Shown here: positions 1 through 47,933 of the stretch, one piece after another
Layout of the letters: the number at the start of each line of letters is the position of its first letter
How positions within the stretch are numbered: position 1 is the first letter of the stretch
NCBI GenBank assembly: GCA_017303735.1
Contig: JAFLCF010000008.1
Coordinates: 1-50,043 of the forward strand
Direction of reading: 5' to 3'
Length of the DNA stretch: 50,043 nt
Source of the DNA: Anaerolineae bacterium
GTDB taxonomy: Bacteria; Chloroflexota; Anaerolineae; Anaerolineales; Villigracilaceae
Program-made: the position numbers and the translations under genes
The notes under the pieces: generated by a model
Told to the model about the DNA's origin: nothing
The model's database searches: none
The model's input: only the letters and a program-made list of their open reading frames with translations

Positions 1-896
1 ATAACCCTGCCAACTACATCCTCGTCCGCTCTACAACAGGTACCTTCAATACCCTCAGTTGTGCCGGTGGCGTGGTCGCACCAGATATCATCACACCTGT
101 TACTTCGGTGACTTATAGCAACGGCGGCGGCTCCGGTCCCTTTGTCGCTACGGTCACATTGAGTACGCCCATCACTACCAATGGCTATTACCGCTTGTTC
201 GTCTGCGGCACCACTTCCATCGTACAAGCCAATAACACGGCACTTGCTTTGGCTGGCAATGGCATTGCCAATGGGACGGACTTTGTCCGCAACTTCCAAC
301 TTGTCACTCCGGCTGCCGGTGGCGGTAGTGGTGGCAGTGCTGGCGCAAGAGAGGATGACTTAGCTGTTGCCGCACTGCCTGCTACTGGTTTTACTCCGGG
401 TCGCATTACCAAGTTGCCCGTTCAGCCAGATGAGCTTGCCTACTCTGACCTCAGTGAGATGTGGATCGAGATCCCTGCCTTGGGCATTAAGACCAGCATT
501 GTCGGTGTGCCACAGACTGCCGATGGCGAATGGGACGTTACCTGGCTTGCCAACAATGTCGGCTGGCTCAATGGCACTGCCTTCCCCACCTGGGAAGGGA
601 ACTCGGTGGTCACAGCGCATGTCACCAATGCCGATGGCGTCGATGGTCCTTTCGCGAACTTGAAGAAGCTCAAGTATGGTGACCAGATCATCATCCATCT
701 CTATGGACAGAAGTACATCTTTGAAGTCCGCAATTCAAGGATGAGCAAACCCTTTACAACCAGCTTTGCTTTCGAGCATCTTGAAGATCAATCTTATCTG
801 ACCCTTATCACCTGTCAGGTTTACCTACCTAAGAGCGATACCTATCTATATCGTCGCGTAATTCGCGCGGTGTTGGTTGAAGTGGAAGGCGAGTAG
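1..896 (+). CDS. Secreted Ig-like protein with LPATGF motif and C-terminal sortase domain (5' truncated by window edge)
   Basis: The frame is open from base 3, so this is the 3' part of a longer gene; the GTG at 72 is an internal Val codon, since it sits inside a module shared with the two paralogs. Visible order: the end of an SbsA-like Ig module, a Gly/Ser-rich linker, LPATGF (codons from 375), about 20 residues with QP, then a sortase fold. Sortase hallmarks are His in TAHVT (618-620), Cys in TLITC (813-815) and Arg-Arg 13-14 residues after the Cys. No transmembrane segment follows LPATG, so this is not a classical C-terminal sorting signal. The protein is paralogous to those at 2318 and 6596, and its first 274 bases are almost identical to 10599-10872. 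It is followed by a strong terminator. Function inferred: cell-surface protein that may process itself; substrate unknown. Confidence 0.85.
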   Translation, partial: NPANYILVRSTTGTFNTLSCAGGVVAPDIITPVTSVTYSNGGGSGPFVATVTLSTPITTNGYYRLFVCGTTSIVQANNTALALAGNGIANGTDFVRNFQLVTPAAGGGSGGSAGAREDDLAVAALPATGFTPGRITKLPVQPDELAYSDLSEMWIEIPALGIKTSIVGVPQTADGEWDVTWLANNVGWLNGTAFPTWEGNSVVTAHVTNADGVDGPFANLKKLKYGDQIIIHLYGQKYIFEVRNSRMSKPFTTSFAFEHLEDQSYLTLITCQVYLPKSDTYLYRRVIRAVLVEVEGE

Positions 897-5300: not shown

Positions 5301-5857
5301 TAGTAGAGGATGATGACTCGCTTACCATCGCAGCCCTGCCCGCTACGGGCTTCGCCCCGAACCGTGTCACCCTATTGGCGGAACAGCCGCAAGACCTCGC
5401 TTACACTGATCTCGGCGACTTATGGATCGAGATTCCTTCGCTTGGCATCAAGACAAGCATCGTGGGTGTGCCTCAGACCAAAGAAGGCGATTGGGATGTG
5501 ACTTGGCTCGCGAACAACGTCGGCTGGCTCAACGGCACCGCCTTCCCCACTTGGGAGGGCAACTCTGTGGTGACAGCTCATGTCACCAATGCCGACGGAC
5601 TGAATGGTCCATTTGCAGACTTGAAGAAACTCAAGTATGGTGACCAGATCATCGTCCACCTCTACGATGAGAAGTACATATTTGAAGTACGCAACTCACG
5701 TCTCTCACGCCCCTACACAACAAGTTTCGCGTTCGAGACCTTGGAAGACGAGTCCTATCTAACTCTGATCACCTGTCAGGTCTACCTACCCAGCAGTGAT
5801 ACATACTTCTTCAGGCGGGTGGTTCGTGCGGTGTTGATACGTGTTGAGAACGAGTAG
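2318..5857 (+). CDS. Giant secreted Gly-rich/Ig protein with LPATGF motif and C-terminal sortase domain
   Basis: 1179 residues. The signal peptide (about 1-31, hydrophobic core ILILILALV, end AVAA) directs export. Two tandem glycine-rich modules follow (about 35-245 and 247-465, each opening with a WTAP-GVTS stretch), then a cadherin-like stretch (about 466-580), a repeat module with a Cys pair (about 590-700), an Ig-like module (about 700-820), an SbsA-like Ig module (about 825-985), a Ser/Gly linker, LPATGF at 1007-1012 and a sortase domain to the end. Catalytic candidates are His1088 (TAHVT), Cys1153 (TLITC) and Arg1166/1167. There is no C-terminal membrane anchor. AGGA lies 7 nt before the ATG. 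It has its own promoter and terminator, so it is monocistronic. Sortases are cysteine transpeptidases that cleave LPXTG-like motifs; self-processing here is inference. Confidence 0.88.
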   Translation: MRKSIFTKAFSAILILILALVTIPVKPAVAATAVDNFSTPGTFTWTAPPDVTSVTVEAWGGGGRGGGIALVGGETVRGGGGGGAYSSSVVTVVPGNTYTIVVGAGATVLAAAGGDSYFGTATTVMAKGGNSAANNNTTGATGGSAAAGFGTIRFSGGAGANGNAGANYSGGGGSSAGTGANGNTATNATGATAPAGGGNGGNGRATTTGAGVIGATPGGGGGGAYSSGATLAQAGGNGADGSVVLTYTSDYRIFNTPGTSSWTAPAGVTSIDVEVWGGGGRGGNVGGGFSGEVVAGGGGGGAYSRSTLTVIPGNTYTIVVGAGSTSTAAGGDSYFDTATTVMAKGGNSSNSATGATGGSAAAGFGTTKYSGGAGANGDATGNYGGGGGSSAGTAAIGTNATNATGASAPAGGGNGGNGKSAPTGAGLVGNLPGGGGGGAYRNGAGFGQNGGNGANGLVVITINVNTPPTGGNGAVTTNEDTTYTFTTADFTTLTTPPYSDAESNPFAGIRVTSLETAGTLQCGGVDVPLNGICADVTTLTFAPVADANGTPYATFQFEVYDGTAYSISSYTMTINVTSDNDIPVETVAPDQFRTDGTTVIAQGGITNETSVVFKGTATDTEGDQYTLEAEAVSDISPFTGVSTCTSPLTNSGTEASTGSCGPFASGSYIWRYRFVDSGGGATAWTVFGVSDPDFIVDSTLPVVTNVTSTTADGTYFTGAVINVTVTFSEIVYVTGAPQITLELGSIDGIANYVSGSGTDTLSFTYTVALGDTTPDLDYVAPTSLTLNGGTIQDAVLNNADLTLPIPGAAGSLGANKDIVIDTTLLMITTNGIDSNPDTGDGNVGENESIPTTHNVTQLIVHFNKDVYDPPGDVDSDDVTNPANYRLLYSTTAVFNTLGCGSGGAPLPIVAPDIPIPVTSVAYSNGGGSGPFIATLNLSTPLTVVGHYRLYVCGTTSIVQASSTAFALAGDGTAPSTDFARNFQLTTPSSSGGGTLVEDDDSLTIAALPATGFAPNRVTLLAEQPQDLAYTDLGDLWIEIPSLGIKTSIVGVPQTKEGDWDVTWLANNVGWLNGTAFPTWEGNSVVTAHVTNADGLNGPFADLKKLKYGDQIIVHLYDEKYIFEVRNSRLSRPYTTSFAFETLEDESYLTLITCQVYLPSSDTYFFRRVVRAVLIRVENE
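2440..3710 (+). repeat. Tandem glycine-rich module repeat inside the 2318 gene
   Basis: Two roughly 620-bp copies encode WTAP-GVTSV-VE-WGGGGRGG, then GGGGGAYS, NTYTIVVGAG and GGDSYF-TATTVMAKGGNS motifs in the same order. DNA identity is interrupted, so the duplication is not recent. This resembles the glycine-rich domains seen in bacterial surface proteins. Confidence 0.8.
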
Positions 5858-9500: not shown

Positions 9501-11497
9501 GCAATACAGATGCGTCTCCTGCTACATACACATGGACAATTGATACCATCGCGCCAGATACAAACATCGACTCAAGCCCAGCCGATCCGAGCAACGACAA
9601 CACCCCCACCTTTACCTTCAGCAGCCCGGATGTGACTGCAACCTTCCAGTGCAGTATTGATGGCGGTGCTTTCTCTGCCTGTACCACACCAGATACTCTT
9701 GCTTTGGCAGATGGATTACATACCTTCGCTGTCCGTGCTGTGGACCCGGCTGGCAACGTCGATGGAACGCCTGCCACCTATACCTGGACAATCGACGCCA
9801 CAGCACCAGACACAACAATTGTTTCCAATCCGACCAACCCAAGCAATAACGCTACACCCACTTTTAATTTCAGCAGTTCAGATGTGACAGCGACCTTTGA
9901 ATGCAGCATTGATGGTGGCGCTTTCTCTGCCTGTACTTCACCCAACTCTCTTGCAGCCTTGGCTGATGGACCACACACCTTCGCCGTTCGCGCCATCGAT
10001 CCCTTGGGCAATGTCGATCCAACTCCTGCTTCCTATACTTGGACGGTCAACACCAGCGCCCCCATCGTGACCAACGTCACCTCACCGGATGCCGATGGTA
10101 CCTACTTCCCTGGTAATACCATCACCATTCTAGTCACATTCGATGAAGCTGTCACTGTAACTGGCACACCGCAACTACTACTTGAATTAGGCGTAGTGGA
10201 TGGGCTTGCCAATTATGTCAGTGGCAGTGGTACAGATACGCTAACGTTCACCTACACTATCGTAACAGGTGATAATACGCCCGATCTAGATTACGTCGCC
10301 AACACCTCGCTAACCCTCAACGGTGGCAGTATTCAAGACGCCGCTCTCAATAACGCGAACCTGACCTTGCCCAACCCCGGCGCAGCAGGCTCGCTGGGTG
10401 CCAACAAGGATATCGTCATTGACGCCCTCATCCTCACAGTTGTCAATAATGGTGTGGGCTCCGTTCCCGATACAGGCGACGGTTCGATCTCTGAAAACGA
10501 ACAGGTGGTAAACACCCTAAACATCAACCAACTGGTTGTGACCTTCAACAAAGATGTATACGATGTTCCCGCCAGCACCACCGACCCCGATGAAGTGGAT
10601 AACCCTGCCAACTACATCCTCGTCCGCTCTACAACAGGTACCTTCAATACCCTCAGTTGTGCCGGTGGCGTGGTCGCACCAGATATCATCACACCTGTTA
10701 CTTCGGTGACTTATAGCAACGGCGGTGGCTCCGGTCCCTTTGTCGCTACTGTCACATTGAGTACGCCCATCACTACCAATGGCTATTACCGCTTGTTCGT
10801 CTGCGGCACCACTTCCATCGTACAAGCCAATAACACGGCACTTGCTTTGGCTGGCAATGGCATTGCCAATGGCACTGACTTCACCCGCAACTTCCAACTT
10901 GTTGACCCTGCCGCCGCCGGTGGTGGAGGCGGCGCTGCTGACACAAGAGAAGATGCAAAATTAACTGTAGGAGCCTTACCTGCCACCGGCTTCGCCCCGA
11001 ACCGTGTCACCATGTTGGCAGAACAACCGAAAGAACTTGCATACACCAGCCTCGGCGACTTGTGGATCGAGATCCCTGCGTTGGGAGTTAAATCCAGCAT
11101 TGTAGGTGTGCCGCAAACCAAAGAAGCCGAATGGAATGTGACCTGGCTTGCCAATAACGTTGGCTGGCTCAACGGCACCGCGTTCCCAACCTGGGAAGGC
11201 AACTCGGTGCTCACTGCACATGTCACCAATGCCGATGGGTTGGATGGTCCCTTCGCGAATTTGACGAAACTCAAATTTGGCGATCAGATCATCGTCCATG
11301 CCTTTGGGCAGAAATATATCTTCGAATTACGCAACTCACGAATGGTCAAACCTTTCTCCACCAGTTTCGCCTTCGAAGACCTTGAGGATGAGTCTTACCT
11401 GACGTTGATCACCTGTCAGGTCTACCTCCCCAAGAGTGACACCTATCTCTATCGCCGCGTGATCCGCGCTGTATTGGTGAGCGTCGAGAACGAATAA
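6596..11497 (+). CDS. Giant secreted multi-Ig protein with LPATGF motif and C-terminal sortase domain
   Basis: 1633 residues. Signal peptide about 1-30 (ends AYAA). Order: a beta-rich domain with QLIKGG (32-200), FN3-like module (201-300), a further beta module (300-505), a Cys-pair module (510-630), five Ig-like units of 84-89 residues starting at 632, 813, 902, 987 and 1071 with a different Ig unit at about 721-812, an Ig-like module (1155-1275), an SbsA-like module (1280-1440), Gly/Ala linker, LPATGF (1461-1466) and the sortase domain. Catalytic candidates are His1542 (TAHVT), Cys1607 (TLITC) and Arg1620/1621. AAGGA precedes the ATG. No membrane anchor follows LPATG. Each of the five units carries two Cys about 11 apart, plausibly a disulfide. 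It is the longest of the three paralogs and is probably exposed on the cell surface. Confidence 0.88.
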   Translation: MNKSFFNKLFSAILIVMLALGALPITPAYAATSGPNLPDVGANVNGPGTVNWTNSGNVISNNNVYATVAVNNSTSEYLQATDFDFAIPAGSSIAGIQVTIGRFGSTGGGQDIQDNVVQLIKGGSLVGSNLGNTTTDWPGTEAAANYGAANNLWGTTWTPAEINDVNFGVALAVDSTNTRTASVDYIQVTVTYFLNSTTVGVATATSGSSSSINVSMPYTDDGDADNTYTVEYCLTSANCPVSGSWTTFVSGAAHSASPFATSITGLAPATSYDVRVTYNDADGITGTNPQTIANVTTAACGGSLTYTIPAGSDRVVVVIVSSEGGGAIGTPNLSGFGAATLIANPVNGNARIYAGYRVVGTSAVAQATTITATNGTCFYANTYTGINQTAGTGVSNTINSSATGTAAAGNTTTNTSVFNAAGGAVVNQAGGRVIYATNMNNAGPSGTGTSGVWTFSELFDGSQTADGNRTAVGQSTATTAGSATITVTDGGTAHNRSVLVGFALNPAITNTAPNAPSTINQYRTDATTVIAQGGYTNQTQVVFKATATDPEANQYQLQVEVLPNASAFTNTATCSSPLTNSGTETSTGSCGAFVSGTSYKWQYRLVDSLGAATAWTSFGGSDPDFTVDSTAPDTTITANPPLLTNSSTAAFSFTGSDPGGSGVASFQCQLDGGGFSACTSPQNYVGLSDGSHTFQVRAIDNAGNVDSTPASYTWTVDTTAPAAPVVTTPANGSVISNPTPLVSGTAEPNSTVTVYIDGSPVGTATADGSGDWNYTPAALSDGSHTVRATSTDAAGNTSPNSNTNTFTVDTVAPDTTITANPTNPTNSSNASFSFTGNDSGGSGVASFQCQLDGGGFSACTSPQNYVGLSDGSHTFQVRAIDVAGNVDTTPASYTWTIDTAAPDTTIDSNPTNPSNDNTPTFTFSSPDVTATFQCSIDGGAFSACTTPNTLATLADGLHTFAVRAVDLLGNTDASPATYTWTIDTIAPDTNIDSSPADPSNDNTPTFTFSSPDVTATFQCSIDGGAFSACTTPDTLALADGLHTFAVRAVDPAGNVDGTPATYTWTIDATAPDTTIVSNPTNPSNNATPTFNFSSSDVTATFECSIDGGAFSACTSPNSLAALADGPHTFAVRAIDPLGNVDPTPASYTWTVNTSAPIVTNVTSPDADGTYFPGNTITILVTFDEAVTVTGTPQLLLELGVVDGLANYVSGSGTDTLTFTYTIVTGDNTPDLDYVANTSLTLNGGSIQDAALNNANLTLPNPGAAGSLGANKDIVIDALILTVVNNGVGSVPDTGDGSISENEQVVNTLNINQLVVTFNKDVYDVPASTTDPDEVDNPANYILVRSTTGTFNTLSCAGGVVAPDIITPVTSVTYSNGGGSGPFVATVTLSTPITTNGYYRLFVCGTTSIVQANNTALALAGNGIANGTDFTRNFQLVDPAAAGGGGGAADTREDAKLTVGALPATGFAPNRVTMLAEQPKELAYTSLGDLWIEIPALGVKSSIVGVPQTKEAEWNVTWLANNVGWLNGTAFPTWEGNSVLTAHVTNADGLDGPFANLTKLKFGDQIIVHAFGQKYIFELRNSRMVKPFSTSFAFEDLEDESYLTLITCQVYLPKSDTYLYRRVIRAVLVSVENE
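8489..10050 (+). repeat. Tandem Ig-like repeat array within the 6596 gene
   Basis: Five units begin with PDT-I at 8489, 9032, 9299, 9554 and 9806. Each contains a FQC-(Q/S)-DGG-FSAC segment, GLHTF/GSHTF-VRA-D and PA-YTWT. The first two are close copies of each other, and the last three form a second sub-family, so duplication happened in steps. Arrays like this commonly vary in copy number. Confidence 0.85.
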
Positions 11498-11519: not shown

Positions 11520-11556
11520 AAAAGCTCCGAGGTTTATAGCCTCGGAGCTTTTTTTA
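11520..11556 (+). terminator. Rho-independent terminator
   Basis: AAGCTCCGAGG/CCTCGGAGCTT perfect stem (11522-11532/11540-11550) plus seven Ts, just after the 6596 gene. Confidence 0.92.
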
Positions 11557-11572
11557 TGAAAATGGATTCGGT

Positions 11573-11578
11573 TATAAT
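11573..11578 (+). promoter_or_regulatory. -10 element placing the transcript start at the kinase ATG (leaderless)
   Basis: TATAAT 7 nt before ATG 11586. No Shine-Dalgarno and no -35 box are visible. Confidence 0.6.
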
Positions 11579-11585
11579 CCGCCCC

Positions 11586-13625
11586 ATGTCCACTTGGAAT
11601 GGTAAATCTCTCGGCAATGTTGTGATCGGCGATCTGATCGCCCGCGGGGGTATGGCAGAAGTTTATTACGGAAAACATTCCACACTCGACCGCAATGTAG
11701 CCGTCAAGATCATGCGCGATCATGTCGAAGAAGATCCTGATTCGCGCACACGCTTCGCGCGAGAGGCACGCGTGGTTGCCGGGCTCGATCACCCCAACAT
11801 CATTCAGATCTTCGACTCCACGCTTGTTGATGGACGCCCATGCATCGTCATGGAACTTGTTCCGGGTGCGTCGCTTGGCAGTTACCTCAAAGAACTCCAC
11901 AAACACGGCAACAAACTTTCACATTCATCCATTGCGCAATTGCTCAAACCCATCGCCGCCGCCATGGACTATGCCCACAACCGCAATATCGTCCATCGCG
12001 ATATAAAGCCAGCCAATATTTTGCTCCGCTCCAAAAATTCACAAGTGATCGCAGGTGAGCCCCTTCCTGAGGATGTAGAACCGGTTCTCACCGACTTTGG
12101 GCTGGTGCGCCTGCTCGATTCCACCACCCAAACCTCAACCGGAACTGTCTCCGGAACACCCTCGTACATGAGTCCCGAACAAGCCCGTGGTGACCGTGTA
12201 GACCGGCGAACAGACATCTACTCACTCGGTGTTGTGCTATATGAAATGCTGGCAGGCGAAGTTCCGTTTGACGCTGAATCTTCCTTCGGCGTATTAATGA
12301 AACATCTAAATGACCCTCCCCCGCCCATCCCTGGCATCTCAAAAGACCTACAGTCCGTGATCAACCGCGCGCTCGCCAAAGACCCAGCCCATCGTTATGA
12401 TTCTGCTGGAGAATTGGTGGATGAGTTTGATGCCGTTCTCAGCGGAAAAAAACTTTCAAAAAAAACAGACACGCTCAAAGATATTGTCGTCAAAGCCGCT
12501 GTTCCTCCGCAGGCTGTGGCGGCACCATCGCGCCTGCCCATTCTGGTTGGAGGCGTGATCGTCCTCACCTTGATCGTTATCGCAGGCATCTGGCTGCTCC
12601 GCCCGACTTTCATGCCAGGTGCCGCGCGCCTGGAACCCAATCAGCCTGTTGGGCACATCACCTACAATGATTTCAACTATCTTGTCGATCAGGTGATCAT
12701 CTCCGTCAATGGGTTGCCCCTGCCCGAGCCGGGCACCCACTTTGAAGTGTGGTTGCTCTCACAGGGCGGAGAGAGGCGGCGCAGCATCGGCAATGTCGCC
12801 TTTGATGGGAACAGCGGTCAGTTGAATTACATTAATCCTGATGGAGATAATTTGCTTGCGGAGTTTGATCAATTTGAGATCACACTTGAACGGGACGATG
12901 GTGACCCAACCCACAGCAATGAAGTAGTGGCTTCTTCGGTTTTCCCACCGTTGGCTCTGCCGCATATACGGCATTTGTTGGTTTCCACCGGCAGCACGCC
13001 AGATGGAATTGCCCTCATTCAAGGATTGTGGGATGGCGCTGATACGATCAACACTTCGGTTATGGAATTGCGCGAAGCCTATTCAGAAGAAGATGAAGAG
13101 ACTGTGCGATTAAAGACCGAAGAGATCATCAATCAACTTTCAGGCAATAAAAATTTAAACCAGTATAAAGATTGGAACGGAGACGGCAGCATCGACGACC
13201 CAATGGATGGATATGGTCTACTTGCAAATGGAGACCCAGAGCAGGGATACATTCCTCAAACCCTGCACACGGTGCGCCTTGCTGCTGAATCCGACGATGC
13301 CACCCGGGGCATTCAAGAACATCGTCAAACCATTAACGTATGTATTCTCAATATGGAAACATGGAGCAAAAGCCTGCTCGACCTGGCACTGGAATTGCAA
13401 GGCATGCCATACGGGACAGAAATGGAAGCTGTTATTACAGAAATGGAAATGCTCTCTAGTCATTTATTATACGGTGAAGATGCCAATGGCAATGGGCGCA
13501 TTGAACCCATCACAAATGAAGGCGGTGCAGATACTGCCTATGTAGAAGCATATTTCATGGCTGAAATGCCGCTGCTGCCCGGCGCACAACGCATCCCGCC
13601 GCCAGCGAAAGAGATTGAGCCTTAA
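11586..13625 (+). CDS. Transmembrane Ser/Thr protein kinase with RskA-like outer domain
   Basis: 679 residues from ATG 11586. An in-frame ATG at 11556 lies in the upstream terminator T run and is rejected. Kinase domain about 14-290: glycine loop ARGGMAEVYYG, Lys41 (VAVK), HRD 137-139, DFG 170-172, SGTPSYMSPEQ and DIYSLGVVLYEML, i.e. a PknB-type Hanks kinase. One membrane helix at about 318-340 is followed by an outside region. Its GTHFEVWLLSQGG and GNVAF parts resemble the sensor domain of RskA-type anti-sigma factors, and an acidic NGDGSIDDP calcium-loop-like stretch occurs near residue 540. No PASTA repeats. Likely a surface-signal sensor; ligand and substrates unknown. Monocistronic, ending in a shared terminator. 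Confidence 0.85.
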   Translation: MSTWNGKSLGNVVIGDLIARGGMAEVYYGKHSTLDRNVAVKIMRDHVEEDPDSRTRFAREARVVAGLDHPNIIQIFDSTLVDGRPCIVMELVPGASLGSYLKELHKHGNKLSHSSIAQLLKPIAAAMDYAHNRNIVHRDIKPANILLRSKNSQVIAGEPLPEDVEPVLTDFGLVRLLDSTTQTSTGTVSGTPSYMSPEQARGDRVDRRTDIYSLGVVLYEMLAGEVPFDAESSFGVLMKHLNDPPPPIPGISKDLQSVINRALAKDPAHRYDSAGELVDEFDAVLSGKKLSKKTDTLKDIVVKAAVPPQAVAAPSRLPILVGGVIVLTLIVIAGIWLLRPTFMPGAARLEPNQPVGHITYNDFNYLVDQVIISVNGLPLPEPGTHFEVWLLSQGGERRRSIGNVAFDGNSGQLNYINPDGDNLLAEFDQFEITLERDDGDPTHSNEVVASSVFPPLALPHIRHLLVSTGSTPDGIALIQGLWDGADTINTSVMELREAYSEEDEETVRLKTEEIINQLSGNKNLNQYKDWNGDGSIDDPMDGYGLLANGDPEQGYIPQTLHTVRLAAESDDATRGIQEHRQTINVCILNMETWSKSLLDLALELQGMPYGTEMEAVITEMEMLSSHLLYGEDANGNGRIEPITNEGGADTAYVEAYFMAEMPLLPGAQRIPPPAKEIEP

Positions 13626-38995: not shown

Positions 38996-41245
38996 TTAAC
39001 CGATCAAACCAACTGCAAAATTCAACACACGCCAATACAAGTTATACAACGGCTGGGGCCAGTTGCTCTTGGGCAAGGCAGGCGGGAAGGAAGTTTTCGC
39101 ATTCGGTTCGTCGAAGCGATTATCCACACCGGTGGTATCCCACACAATGTCGAAGCCGCTGCCGAGCATATTCTTCACGAACGGATCCGCATCGTAGCCG
39201 TTGTTCTCGTAAATATTATCGTGCGCAAAGTTATGGTCAGGGTTGGGGTCTACATCGATCTCTTCGGGCGAGAAGCCGATGGTGAGGTTGAAGACAGCCA
39301 AGCCAACGGTCTTATTGCCCTTGAACGTATTACCATACACTTCCACATGGTCGGCGGCAAGGATGAGCATACCCGTTCCCGGCGGGATGAGGGAAACCGC
39401 TGTGCCGGGCTTGCCAAAGTTTGCGCCATTGTTATTCTCAGAGACGTTGTTATACACCTTGGTATACATCGAAACTTTGGAGGGCAACTGCGGCAAGAGG
39501 TCGATGAAAATACCGATAGTGTTATCGTGGGCGACGTTGTTATACACTTCACCGTTGACGGTGTTTTCCAACTCGATGCCGATCACGTTGCCATAGGTCA
39601 ACGTATCGCGGATGACCACATCTTTAGACTTCCCCGCATAAATGGCAGCATCATTCATAAGCGTACCTTCAATGCGTTCGATCAACACATCAGTGCAGCG
39701 CACTGGGTACACGCCATACACACCCGTATTCTCGATGTACATATCATGCAGGTAGACATGCGTTGAACCTTCGACCAAGACACCGTTGCTCGTAAAGTTC
39801 TTCACCTGGAAGTATGCCATCTCAAAGTTGTTACCAGAAGCGATGACACCATCTGAGCCTGTGCCATTGCCTTCAATGATAGGCCACTCGCCCGCATCGT
39901 TTGGAATACCAAAGAACTTGATATCGCTCACATCGATGATGACATGTTCTTCATAAATTCCATAAGGGACTTCGATGGTATCACCGGGCAATGCCTGATC
40001 GACAACTTCCTGAATCGTCTGACCCGGCTCGACTCTCAAGGTCACCGGCTCGTGCGTAGACGTGGAAGTTGATTCTGTTTCTGAAGCATTCACCTCGCTG
40101 ACAATTTGTCTTGCCTGCACAGGTTCAAGCTTTTTCACAACATCCAAGCCCGAAGGCACAGACGTGGGAATCTCTGGCAGGTTGCTCTCATCAGTTAACG
40201 CATACATAAAAGCGACTAGGTCTGCTTTTTCCTGCTCGGTCAATTCAAAGCCGAGGACGTGAATATCCACGTCGGCAACACCGGCATCCCGTCCGCCGCC
40301 TTTGGCGTAGAAATCCACCACTTCTTCAAGAGTATTGAAAGCACCATTGTGCATATAGGGAGCGGTCAATGCAATGTTACGAAGTGTAGGGGCTTTGAAG
40401 GCGCCATCCAAACCTGAAGGTTCAATGGCTTTTCGTCCTTCATCATGCGGCTGACCGGGCAAATCTGGCACGCCGGTCACTGAGAACGACTCATCGGCAA
40501 AGGTCGGCGCGGCGTGACATTCAAAACAACGCGTCGCTGCCGAACGGAAGAGACCAAGTCCACGGCGTTGTGACGGGGTGAGTGCATTCACATTGCCAGC
40601 GGCATATCGGTCAAATGGCGAGTCGTTGGTTATCAATGAACGCTCAAAAGCGGCAATGGCGTATGTGACATTTTCATAGGTCACAGCGTCGGCAGACCCA
40701 AATGCCTTTTCGAAAAGTTCTACATATTCAGGGATCGCTTTTAACTCAGCGACGAGGTCATCAGGAGAACTGCCCATTTCATTTTCACTGGTGAGCGGGA
40801 TCTCCATCTGTTCTTCCAGAGAGGCAGCGCGACCGTCCCAAAAGAAGGAGGTGTTATATGCCACGTTCCAAAGGCTCATGGCACTGCGTGGAAGCGCCTC
40901 ACCGTCTGCGCCGATGGCTTGGGCATTACCATCGGTGAAGCCCATGTCGGGGTGGTGGCATGAGGCGCAGGACATGTCGTCGTTTTGAGACAAGACCGGG
41001 TCGAAGAAAAGGAGGCGACCCAATTCCACTTTTTCGGGCGTGGATGGGTTATCTGCTGTTTCGTTCGAAGCAGGGAAGTCACGTTGTAATCCGCTCCAGG
41101 CGGGTTCGACACTGCTTGAGCCTGCCCCCCATTGTTCTTCGGGCAATTCCACTGCGGGCGGCAATGGGATGAAGGCAGCGAGGGCTACGCCAACCAGCAA
41201 CGCAATGCCCAAACCTAAAAAGATACGTTTGATCCAAACTTTCAT
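38996..41245 (-). CDS. Diheme cytochrome c peroxidase fused to a NosD-like parallel beta-helix domain
   Basis: 749 residues. N-terminal helix (about 7-26) as signal or anchor. The peroxidase/MauG-like part (about 65-360) has CASCH (93-97) and CFECH (240-244) heme sites, plus GRLLFFDPVLS, FWDGRA and APTLRNIALTAPYMHNG. A Thr/Ser linker leads to a parallel beta-helix (about 395-700) with RVEPGQTIQEVVDQALPGDTI and repeated N-V-NN coils. Peroxidases reduce H2O2 or modify protein tyrosine/tryptophan; the helix may bind or position a substrate. It lies 46 bp after the lipoprotein cytochrome c, a likely electron donor. Confidence 0.85.
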   Translation of the reverse strand: MKVWIKRIFLGLGIALLVGVALAAFIPLPPAVELPEEQWGAGSSSVEPAWSGLQRDFPASNETADNPSTPEKVELGRLLFFDPVLSQNDDMSCASCHHPDMGFTDGNAQAIGADGEALPRSAMSLWNVAYNTSFFWDGRAASLEEQMEIPLTSENEMGSSPDDLVAELKAIPEYVELFEKAFGSADAVTYENVTYAIAAFERSLITNDSPFDRYAAGNVNALTPSQRRGLGLFRSAATRCFECHAAPTFADESFSVTGVPDLPGQPHDEGRKAIEPSGLDGAFKAPTLRNIALTAPYMHNGAFNTLEEVVDFYAKGGGRDAGVADVDIHVLGFELTEQEKADLVAFMYALTDESNLPEIPTSVPSGLDVVKKLEPVQARQIVSEVNASETESTSTSTHEPVTLRVEPGQTIQEVVDQALPGDTIEVPYGIYEEHVIIDVSDIKFFGIPNDAGEWPIIEGNGTGSDGVIASGNNFEMAYFQVKNFTSNGVLVEGSTHVYLHDMYIENTGVYGVYPVRCTDVLIERIEGTLMNDAAIYAGKSKDVVIRDTLTYGNVIGIELENTVNGEVYNNVAHDNTIGIFIDLLPQLPSKVSMYTKVYNNVSENNNGANFGKPGTAVSLIPPGTGMLILAADHVEVYGNTFKGNKTVGLAVFNLTIGFSPEEIDVDPNPDHNFAHDNIYENNGYDADPFVKNMLGSGFDIVWDTTGVDNRFDEPNAKTSFPPALPKSNWPQPLYNLYWRVLNFAVGLIG

Positions 41246-44662: not shown

Positions 44663-45997
44663 TTACGGGTTGGTTTGGTAATATGTGCCAGTCGTCAGCA
44701 GGGCGGGGTCATTGATGGACTGAGCCGCAAGCATCTGGGCACGCCGCGCTGTGTCTATGGAATTGGAGAGCACTTCCAGCGCATATTCGGGGTTGTGGAA
44801 ACCGGTCGAATTTTCCGCCGAGATGAAGTCCCACATAAATTGGGCTTCGCGGTGTAACTTCTTGGCTTCATCGAGCAGAGCCGGGTCTGCATTTCCCGCC
44901 GCAACCGCCGCCTTGATGGCAGTCATCGCATCGATGATGGCATCTTCGGCAGTGATCTTCGTCTTAGCCACCTGTTGTTGAATGATCGCAACGCGTTCGG
45001 TCACATATTCAGTATCAGTATGGCACTGTCCACAGGCTTGTTCAGGGTTGAGCAATGGACTATGAACATCATGCGATGAGTATTTTTCGGCTCCATCACG
45101 CACATACGGCATGTGGCAATCTGCACAGGAGACGCCCGCTTCGTAGTGGGTGCTGCCCGCCGTGAAGAACTCATATTCGGGGTGCTGTGCTTTCAGCATG
45201 GGGCTATCTGTTTCGGGGTATACCCAATCTTTGAAGCCAGCTTCTTCATAGTAGGAGATGATCTCTTCGACCTTGGTGCCGTTATCCCACGGGAAGGTCA
45301 AATACTTGCCATCGCCCTTGAAATAATATTCAACATGGCAGTTGGCACAGACGAGGGAGCGCATCTCCTGGCGAGAATAAGTCTCCCAATCCTTGCCCTG
45401 GCGTTCGAGGGCTTCGATCAATGCCGGGTTGGTCGCTATCAAGCGCATCGTCCCTGCTTCGTGGCAGTTCGAACAACCAATGGAGTTGTTGATGTTCGGA
45501 GTCATCTCATTGAATGACATGGCATCGTAGGCTTCCATACCTAGCTCAGCCCACAAGCCGGGGTTATCAGATGATTTGCAGGAATAGCATGTGGCAGGTG
45601 TGTGTTTTGGATCTTCATCGTTCAGGTTCAAACGCTTGGTCGCACGGACATCCTCCAACGCATTGGCATGTCCACGGTCATCGTTGTAATCTTTGCTAAA
45701 CGGATACCCACCAAACAAAATCACCTGGCGCGGGTCGCGTTCCAACCATGAGAACTGCGAAGAGCCCGCATAGGTGGTATCAATATTATTGGTTTCGGTC
45801 TTCAACAAAGAATGATATTGATTGGGATAATTAATGCCCCACTTGGCAGAGTCTGGTTCCATCGGTGCGATCTCCACCAAAGGCTGAATGGAACGCACTT
45901 CAGCGGGCTGATTCTGAATGTAGACCATCACACCGATCAACACCGCAGCGAGCACGATCACCAACCCAGCAAGAATTAAAGTTGTATAGTTTTTCAT
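44663..45997 (-). CDS. nrfA: Ammonia-forming pentaheme cytochrome c nitrite reductase
   Basis: 444 residues. ATG 45997 is preferred to the ATG at 46003 because AAGGAG (46010-46005) is 7 nt away from the former and one from the latter. N-terminal helix as signal/anchor. Five hemes: CYSCK (137-141, the active-site heme with Lys ligand), CSNCH (175-179), CANCH (217-221), CADCH (291-295) and CGQCH (322-326). The enzyme reduces nitrite to ammonium with six electrons outside the cytoplasmic membrane, supplied by NrfH. The Shine-Dalgarno overlaps the nrfH stop, so the two genes are co-translated. Confidence 0.96.
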   Translation of the reverse strand: MKNYTTLILAGLVIVLAAVLIGVMVYIQNQPAEVRSIQPLVEIAPMEPDSAKWGINYPNQYHSLLKTETNNIDTTYAGSSQFSWLERDPRQVILFGGYPFSKDYNDDRGHANALEDVRATKRLNLNDEDPKHTPATCYSCKSSDNPGLWAELGMEAYDAMSFNEMTPNINNSIGCSNCHEAGTMRLIATNPALIEALERQGKDWETYSRQEMRSLVCANCHVEYYFKGDGKYLTFPWDNGTKVEEIISYYEEAGFKDWVYPETDSPMLKAQHPEYEFFTAGSTHYEAGVSCADCHMPYVRDGAEKYSSHDVHSPLLNPEQACGQCHTDTEYVTERVAIIQQQVAKTKITAEDAIIDAMTAIKAAVAAGNADPALLDEAKKLHREAQFMWDFISAENSTGFHNPEYALEVLSNSIDTARRAQMLAAQSINDPALLTTGTYYQTNP

Positions 45998-46008
45998 TTG
46001 CATTCTCC

Positions 46009-46494
46009 TTACTTCGTCGGATAAATTACAGAATCTTGATACGGAGCGCCCGTAATGCCGCGTTCGCCATGCGCAACGCTACGATGACACTCCCAACAAT
46101 AGCGATCCAAAGGTTGTTCGCCTGCCAGCATGGCGTCCACAGTACTTTCGTGGCAATGAATGCAATTCTCCTGAACGATCTCTTTCGTCTTTTCCTCAGC
46201 ACGGATCGCCACCGGAATATTCCCCGTCACAAAGGCATAGGTATCCTTCGCGCCCTGGCGTCCTTTCTCCATGTAATACGAAACAAAGTTATCGTGAGGC
46301 AAATGACAGTCTGTACATTTCGCCACCTGAGCATGCCCCCCATGCGCCCAGTTTTCATACTGCGAGTCCATTGCATGGCAGTTCGCACACGTCTCTGGCG
46401 CGCTTCCCCCGTACGCAGCGGCATCCGACACCAGCGCAAAATATCCCAGCGCAAGGATCGCAACACCAATGGCAATGATAGGAAGTTTAGACAT
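46009..46494 (-). CDS. nrfH: Tetraheme quinol dehydrogenase subunit NrfH
   Basis: 161 residues: an N-terminal membrane helix (about 4-22), then four hemes CANCH (36-40, followed by Ala-Met, the Met ligand pattern of NrfH heme 1), CTDCH (60-64), CIHCH (111-115) and CWECH (133-137). It takes electrons from menaquinol and passes them to NrfA. First gene of nrfHA, with a Crp-like site centred 41.5 nt before the predicted transcript start. Confidence 0.95.
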   Translation of the reverse strand: MSKLPIIAIGVAILALGYFALVSDAAAYGGSAPETCANCHAMDSQYENWAHGGHAQVAKCTDCHLPHDNFVSYYMEKGRQGAKDTYAFVTGNIPVAIRAEEKTKEIVQENCIHCHESTVDAMLAGEQPLDRYCWECHRSVAHGERGITGAPYQDSVIYPTK

Positions 46495-47357: not shown

Positions 47358-47933
47358 TCACATGTTTGAGTGCATGTGCATCATCCCACGCATATGTTGA
47401 ATGGTCTCATCCATGCCAAGCAAATGACCACCAAACCCTTTTTGGAAATTCTCTGCATCGGCTTTTGCGCCAAATGCCAGAATGCTCGGAACACAGCAAA
47501 TGCTGACCGTGCTCCCTACCAAATAAAAAGCCTGCCCGGCACTGATCATGTGACCATATAAATAATCCATCGTCATAGATTGCCAGACATTTTGAGAACG
47601 GCTTTGCAGCATCAAACCACAATGAGCGCAGCAAGCCCGCAGTTCTTCGCCATCATCCAATTTAACAATAAACAAAGTGCGTGGAGAGATGCTCTTGCCG
47701 CACATCGCACAGCTGGATGATTCGTCCGACATCTTGTTAGCACCAGATTTTGGTAACGTGGCACCACCATGCTTCTTAATGATCTTCCCCGCATTTGCTA
47801 ATTTATGCAAATCACGATGGATGGTCATATTGGACACGCCAAACATCTCAGCCAATTGCAGGATGGAAGCACTGCCATTGTCTTGAAGGTATTCTAAAAT
47901 TTGATTTTCACGGTCTAAGGAGTTTGAAGTCAT
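47358..47933 (-). CDS. DeoR-type HTH protein fused to a NosL-like metal-binding domain
   Basis: 191 residues. DeoR-type winged helix at about 5-60 (ILQLAEMFGVSNMTIHRDLHKL). Then CAMC (75-78) and CCAHC (101-105) clusters, and a region (about 115-172) resembling copper-binding NosL: DYLYGHMISAGQAFYLVGS, CCVPSILAF and AENFQKGFGG. The C-terminus is HMRGMMHMHSNM. Inference: a cytosolic metal-responsive repressor, probably for copper, controlling itself and the adjacent copper lipoprotein gene. It lacks the sugar-phosphate sensor of normal DeoR proteins. Its start codon lies inside a half-site of the likely operator. Confidence 0.7.
   Translation of the reverse strand: MTSNSLDRENQILEYLQDNGSASILQLAEMFGVSNMTIHRDLHKLANAGKIIKKHGGATLPKSGANKMSDESSSCAMCGKSISPRTLFIVKLDDGEELRACCAHCGLMLQSRSQNVWQSMTMDYLYGHMISAGQAFYLVGSTVSICCVPSILAFGAKADAENFQKGFGGHLLGMDETIQHMRGMMHMHSNM

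Follow-up and report, generated by a model that had tools for sequence, protein, structure and literature searches.

Chloroflexota surface proteins that end in an LPxTGF motif fused to a sortase: a candidate self-sorting module

Introduction

In textbooks the sortase is a reusable membrane enzyme in its own right, and the known sortases of classes E and F are separate membrane enzymes. Fusions of substrate and sortase have been made by engineering, among them STEPL, which is reportedly built with S. aureus-type SrtA. As an excerpt of PMC11561820 describes such constructs, a protein with LPETG and a sortase are joined in one chain, and addition of poly-Gly frees the tagged protein; within the limits of that excerpt, engineered fusions such as STEPL show such chemistry to be feasible. 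A comparable mode of action is found in Hedgehog and intein (HINT) proteins, whose C-terminal domain takes up the preceding part of the chain as a thioester and hands it on a single time (PMC7664689, in excerpt). Class C (pilin) sortases carry a lid with the sequence Asp-Pro-aromatic (DPX), which, compared in crystal structures, falls on the LPAT peptide of SrtA and has its proline in a similar position (PMC3493515, in the part available to us). In listings of the open-licence literature, to which our search was confined, we recognised no paper on a natural fusion of an LPXTG signal with a sortase.

In this work we describe such an arrangement in a stretch of 50,043 nucleotides (the window) from an Anaerolineae bacterium, in which three paralogous proteins end in an LPATGF motif followed by a sortase domain. 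Like the classical LPXTG signal (PF00746), this module combines LPxTG with a presumably removable tail, and here the tail is an enzyme rather than a transmembrane (TM) helix with Arg/Lys. Compared with class C sortases, it is predicted to hold a full LPxTGF in the place of the lid, lacks a TM helix and forms the C-terminus of a giant surface protein. It shares with STEPL and other self-cleaving sortase fusions the single chain, but is natural and widespread where STEPL is man-made. The likeness to HINT domains concerns mode of action only, as fold and chemistry differ.

Results

Three paralogs with motif and sortase in one chain

An earlier note on this DNA had placed an LPATGF motif at nt 375 ahead of a sortase with its catalytic His and Cys, and these positions proved exact to the base (Table 1). 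The same layout, claimed at 5336-5857 and 10976-11497, was recovered at both places, with motif, His, Cys and Arg-Arg located. Counted from the L of the motif, 173 residues remain to the end in all three paralogs (172-173 had been given), and in all three the His lies 65 residues before the Cys and the Cys 13 before the Arg, in keeping with the 13-14 first proposed. The sortase domain reaches in each case to a few residues before the stop, and the module regions are 73-86% identical, so the three paralogs are not independent of one another. A hydrophobic N-terminus is followed in paralog 2 by two stretches matching Pfam Gly_rich_2 and in paralog 3 by five stretches of Big_13 Ig-like repeats, the module coming last in both; the hydrophobic N-termini of these complete proteins read by eye as signal peptides. 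No further xPxTGF (x being L, I, V, M, N, S or A) was present in stop-to-stop frames of at least 60 residues in the window.

Table 1. Coordinates of the fused paralogs, their parts and an adjoining gene within the window
Feature	Position	Strand	Basis or remark
Paralog 1, C-terminal 297 aa, with the LPxTGF-sortase module at its end	3..896	+	open frame; 5' end cut by window edge
LPATGF sorting motif, paralog 1	375..392	+	sequence and homolog conservation
Conserved linker from motif to first strand, paralog 1 (T136, L138, Q141, P142, Y147)	393..461	+	
Sortase domain PF04203, paralog 1	465..878	+	Pfam, residues 155-292, 70.8 bits
Catalytic residues, paralog 1	His 618-620; Cys 813-815; Arg-Arg 852-857	+	
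Paralog 2, complete frame, 1179 aa	2318..5857	+	open frame and Pfam
LPATGF, paralog 2	5336..5353	+	
Sortase domain, paralog 2	5426..5836	+	Pfam
Catalytic residues, paralog 2	His 5579-5581; Cys 5774-5776; Arg-Arg 5813-5818	+	
Paralog 3, complete frame, 1633 aa	6596..11497	+	open frame and Pfam
LPATGF, paralog 3	10976..10993	+	
Sortase domain, paralog 3	11066..11479	+	Pfam
Catalytic residues, paralog 3	His 11219-11221; Cys 11414-11416; Arg-Arg 11453-11458	+	
Putative Ser/Thr protein kinase, 58 bases downstream of paralog 3	11556..13625	+	reads by eye

A frame with the same kinase motif as the putative kinase gene lies 3' of the fused gene in loci L001 and L003, and was not seen in L002, L004, L005 or L006. 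Elsewhere in the window, reading by eye suggests a di-haem cytochrome c peroxidase fused to a right-handed beta-helix (38996-41245), two adjoining multihaem cytochrome genes resembling nitrite reductase NrfA and NrfH (44663-46494), and a DeoR-like helix-turn-helix seemingly fused to a Cys-rich NosL-like domain (47358-47933).

All three paralogs fall within the Sortase superfamily PF04203, at 70.8, 65.4 and 67.2 bits (paralogs 1, 2 and 3) against a gathering score of 26.6, with the His, Cys and Arg all present. None passes the cut-off of any NCBIfam sortase model: class C gives 43.5, 40.0 and 40.9 bits against 160, class F (NF033748) gives 49, 41.9 and 40.6 against 166, and the general model TIGR01076 gives 39.0 against 39.35 for paralog 1, whose best NCBIfam score is that for class F; the class E model (NF033747) has its cut-off at 160. 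Of the two closest standalone relatives, L044 gets its best score from the class E model and L046 from the class F model, both under the cut-offs. As to the classical PF00746 anchor, the motif is present and a hydrophobic helix with charged tail is absent. There is likewise no indication of a HINT fold, since Pfam gives Sortase and the structure model aligns with sortases.

Conservation of motif, linker and catalytic residues

Homologs were gathered by searching 5.8 billion proteins twice, and the best 120 of 471 together with the best 120 of 498 matches form a set of 240 near relatives, including two of the window's own proteins. In this set the P, T, G and F of the motif are kept in 239, 239, 240 and 239 sequences (the single one without P being truncated at the motif), and the catalytic H, C and R in 240, 240 and 239. 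Among 89 representatives at 70% identity, too, 88-89 keep each of these residues, and the motif positions rank beside the catalytic ones in conservation. The 20 residues upstream, by comparison, are Gly/Thr/Ser-rich and poorly conserved (115 rows, first search). Because the motif is conserved as strictly as the catalytic residues and its upstream surroundings are not, the presence of LPATGF beside the sortase is, judged from these alignments, not due to chance.

The first motif position is more permissive among these 240 best homologs (L 187, I 27, V 7, M 6, N 5, S 4, A 2, T 1, and one gap). N, S, A or T replace it in 12 of the 239 sequences that are complete there (P0188, P0195, P0216, P0224 and others), while P-x-T-G-F stays. 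Its association with positions in the sortase is weak and was set aside, the best mutual information being 0.30 bit at residue 273, in a scan that had only these 12 rows outside L, I, V and M and left the relatedness of rows in.

Downstream of the motif, the five linker residues named in Table 1 are conserved. In all 240 best homologs 23-25 residues separate the motif F from the first-strand Glu, and in 177 of them the number is 25, so that the linker of about 20 residues described earlier is indeed present but is nearer 25 residues long. The accompanying claim that the enzyme takes the place of a membrane-helix tail is borne out by the last 180 residues of the same homologs, where a hydrophobic 19-mer occurs in only 1/240 and there looks like the first strand.

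The motif is retained as well in members recovered by other means, for example ahead of two diverged sortases of genome G290 (IPDTGY in L195, IPQTGF in L197). Four genomes that had appeared to hold motif-less homologs (G577, G614, G571 and G622) were rejected as such, LPxTGF being present with a longer linker, which means that the 23-25 residue spacing is not universal. In a motif check of 48 loci, 45 frames passed the filter and 43 of these held the motif, the two misses being one place. Of the three loci that yielded no frame, L135 and L136 carry LPxTGF, and L151 (G378:C79) is a 76-residue fragment and a true miss, like those in G051 and G230. These last are a sortase remnant without motif inside the fused clade (G051, L041) and a 169-residue frame without motif (G230, L128 and L150, one place); both motif-free copies look decayed.

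Distribution and ectodomains

Applying a cut-off of 1e-25, we found the module in 76 of 151 genomes sampled from the order and in 29 of 400 sampled from the phylum, where 3 of the 57 matches start past query residue 7. A class-level sample searched at a looser cut-off gave 6 of 120 genomes with matches starting at or before residue 5 and at least 41% identity, plus the remnant in G051. Genomes carry up to 7 copies. Organism names on the named matches are Chloroflexi, Chloroflexota, Anaerolineae or Anaerolineales, with one bioreactor metagenome, and the proteins themselves are mostly called 'sortase', 'class F sortase' or 'LPXTG-site transpeptidase (sortase) family protein'. Ectodomains vary widely among homologs, from the Gly-rich and Big_13 regions of the window's own paralogs to Pfam accessions that we take to include Ig-like, DUF11, beta-helix and cadherin-like families. 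Given these differences, the module behaves as a portable C-terminus.

Predicted placement of the motif

Whether LPATGF can reach the active site, a question raised in the earlier note, was addressed by structure prediction. In a model of the 297-residue fragment (59 rows) the motif and linker had pLDDT values of 50-55 and were not confidently placed. A model of the 177-residue module (102 rows) had a mean pLDDT of 93.1 and a pTM of 0.89, with 83 for the motif block, 96 for the next ten residues and 88-96 over the linker block of paralog 1; it shows a sortase beta-barrel fold, and the motif is predicted to lie in the active-site groove, much like a class C lid.

Among 50 rows of structural alignment, 17 start from the first residue of the model. 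B. anthracis SrtA (class A) is one of these, and the other 16 are class C or pilin-type sortases. Two class C rows did not align over the motif, 3re9 starting from model residue 24 and the lid mutant 6bwe from residue 21. The comparison of lid registers left out 2w1k, whose register would presumably be one residue off, as well as 2xwg, 3g66, 7cg9, 3o0p and 4d7w. For four enzymes the register was derived from the first-aligned residues and the lid residues were taken from print, so far as excerpts of the papers give them: D58/W60 in 2w1j (PMC5640630), D84-F86 in 4g1h and D90-Y92 in 4g1j (PMC3493515), and D81/W83 in 5k9a (PMC9126251). If there is no gap in the first seven residues, L5-P6-A7 of the model fall on the Asp-Pro-aromatic of each. 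The LPA of the motif is thus predicted to occupy the site of the class C pseudo-substrate lid; its placement in the model is lid-like, but the sequence is LPATG and not DPX. AlphaFold may have learned class C lids beforehand.

A second fused family

A different design occurs in a protein of about 3960 residues in G112 (L066:2318-14191), in which LPTTG comes before two TM helices separated by a short Arg-rich turn, and a Pro/Thr linker then leads to the sortase. Its C-terminus has 24 database matches, one of them 99% identical, and xPxTG, two TM helices and a sortase follow one another in 24/24. The proteins of this family (L066; P0241-P0264) are giant and DUF11-type. Between xPxTG and sortase core lie 101-178 residues in 23 of the 24 rows; for P0262 the spacing count picked up a nearer APTTG, and its LPATG lies further upstream. 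Catalytic residues, assigned by pattern only, comprise a His in 24/24 and a Thr-Cys strand in 20/24, the remaining four holding a Cys whose position was not placed.

In a quick sortase tree (95 rows, 144 columns) the 24 rows of the second family form one branch (SH-aLRT 96), and 44 sampled rows of the window type together with one remnant form a separate branch (SH-aLRT 100), both lying among non-fused Anaerolineae sortases. Two independent fusions of motif and sortase are likely on this evidence; with the deep forks among fused families and standalone enzymes unsettled, they are probable rather than proven.

Standalone sortases and ordinary tails in the same genomes

In eight genomes inspected by family search (G001-G005, G032, G290 and G443) there is one standalone sortase apiece, 308-345 residues long, with a TM helix and without xPxTG, beside 1-6 fused sortases; additional sortase-like items are a small sortase in G004 (L015) and a weak match in G032 (L194). 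Of 27 non-fused sortases, the remnant L041 included, 2 have a loosely matching xPxTG (SPMTG and APRTG) no more than 60 residues from the core, compared with 238 of 240 in the window family.

A PF00746 search of five genomes, with E values up to 1 allowed, yielded 17 matches, none over the cut-off; loci were obtained for 10, of which two (L027, L031) had LPxTGF. As this yielded little, an LPxTGF DNA pattern was scanned instead in five genomes, in frames of at least 60 residues, a strict pattern blind to IP, VP and first-position variants other than L or F. It found one ordinary LPxTGF-TM-Arg tail each in G005, G032 and G443; one in G003 was found through PF00746. The same strict scan gave 5 fused proteins and zero ordinary tails in G001, a draft genome, and 4 fused and zero ordinary in G290, which has the two diverged fused copies besides, for a total of 6. 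L156, L161, L070 and L092 apparently represent one family of small membrane proteins with this classical tail, present once each in G032, G443, G003 and G005 and not in G001 or G290. This small protein is perhaps the substrate of the standalone sortase.

Discussion

We propose, at a probability of roughly 60%, that the module is a loaded, self-sorting and probably single-turnover sortase. The C-terminal ~173 residues would act as a self-contained sorting module. After export by way of the putative signal peptide, the sortase would fold, and the conserved linker would lay the LPxTGF of the same chain into its own active-site groove. The Cys would then attack the Thr-Gly bond, leaving the large ectodomain as a thioester on its own sortase, from which it would pass to an envelope amine while the sortase is released with a new N-terminus, GFxP. 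The enzyme would thus act about once, on itself, as an intein or a Hedgehog autoprocessing domain does, but with a sortase fold.

Cutting could instead occur in trans: the standalone membrane sortase, or another fused copy (which might build polymers), would cleave the fused LPxTGF as a normal sorting signal, and the fused sortase would act on other proteins. The standalone TM sortase found in all eight genomes could do such cutting, and the classical LPxTGF-TM-Arg proteins of G003, G005, G032 and G443 indicate that a trans system exists. The fused proteins, however, lack the TM helix that keeps substrates by a membrane sortase, their enzymes exceed the ordinary tails found (6 vs 0 in G290, 5 vs 0 in G001), and cutting in trans leaves the conserved linker, fixed spacing and predicted docking unexplained; we consider it unlikely. 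Sortase folds are built for amine acceptors, which counts against another variant, in which the module cuts itself at LPxT-GF, the thioester is hydrolysed and the ectodomain is shed rather than anchored, as does the fact that proteolytic release would not need a sortase rather than a protease. Although the sequence evidence is the same as for self-anchoring, and a sortase can cleave without transfer under some circumstances (PMC11561820, in excerpt), we regard shedding as highly improbable.

The two models of the earlier note, self-cleavage and a pseudosubstrate lid, both fit the predicted motif position. An uncleaved LPATGF might plug the active site as a DPX lid does, making the module a tethered, regulated sortase for other substrates, and the predicted coincidence with class C lids, the conservation of the linker in the manner of a structural element, and the description of GBS PI-1 class C lids as pseudo-substrates (PMC3493515, in the part seen) would suit this. 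A lid has no need of a Thr-Gly scissile bond, yet T is kept in 239/240 and G in 240/240 of the best homologs. That T-G-F is invariant, and that its F recurs in the ordinary LPxTGF signals which some of these genomes carry, speaks for a genuine substrate rather than a dead lid, and the small number of ordinary tails found in the examined genomes likewise counts against a lid. A tight lid is also hard to reconcile with the second family, where xPxTG precedes a TM hairpin far from the enzyme. On these grounds we judge the lid rather doubtful and the motif a true substrate; the self-sorting reading is the one to which the second family, as read from its sequences, points as well.

A broader proposition, which to us stands at about even odds, is that sorting signal and sortase have been fused naturally into single-turnover self-anchoring proteins in at least two designs, and that this cis mode has largely replaced the trans economy in some Chloroflexota.

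Very large, putatively secreted proteins of Chloroflexota thus end in an anchoring signal and its enzyme, and each probably anchors itself once. If true, the module would represent a naturally occurring, single-use form of what is otherwise a reusable enzyme standing on its own, as well as a natural counterpart to engineered sortase fusions, and would add to protein anchoring a self-processing mode in which each substrate comes with its own enzyme. It would further show how the class C lid and the substrate may be related, and would offer a first handle on how giant surface proteins are attached in uncultured Chloroflexota.
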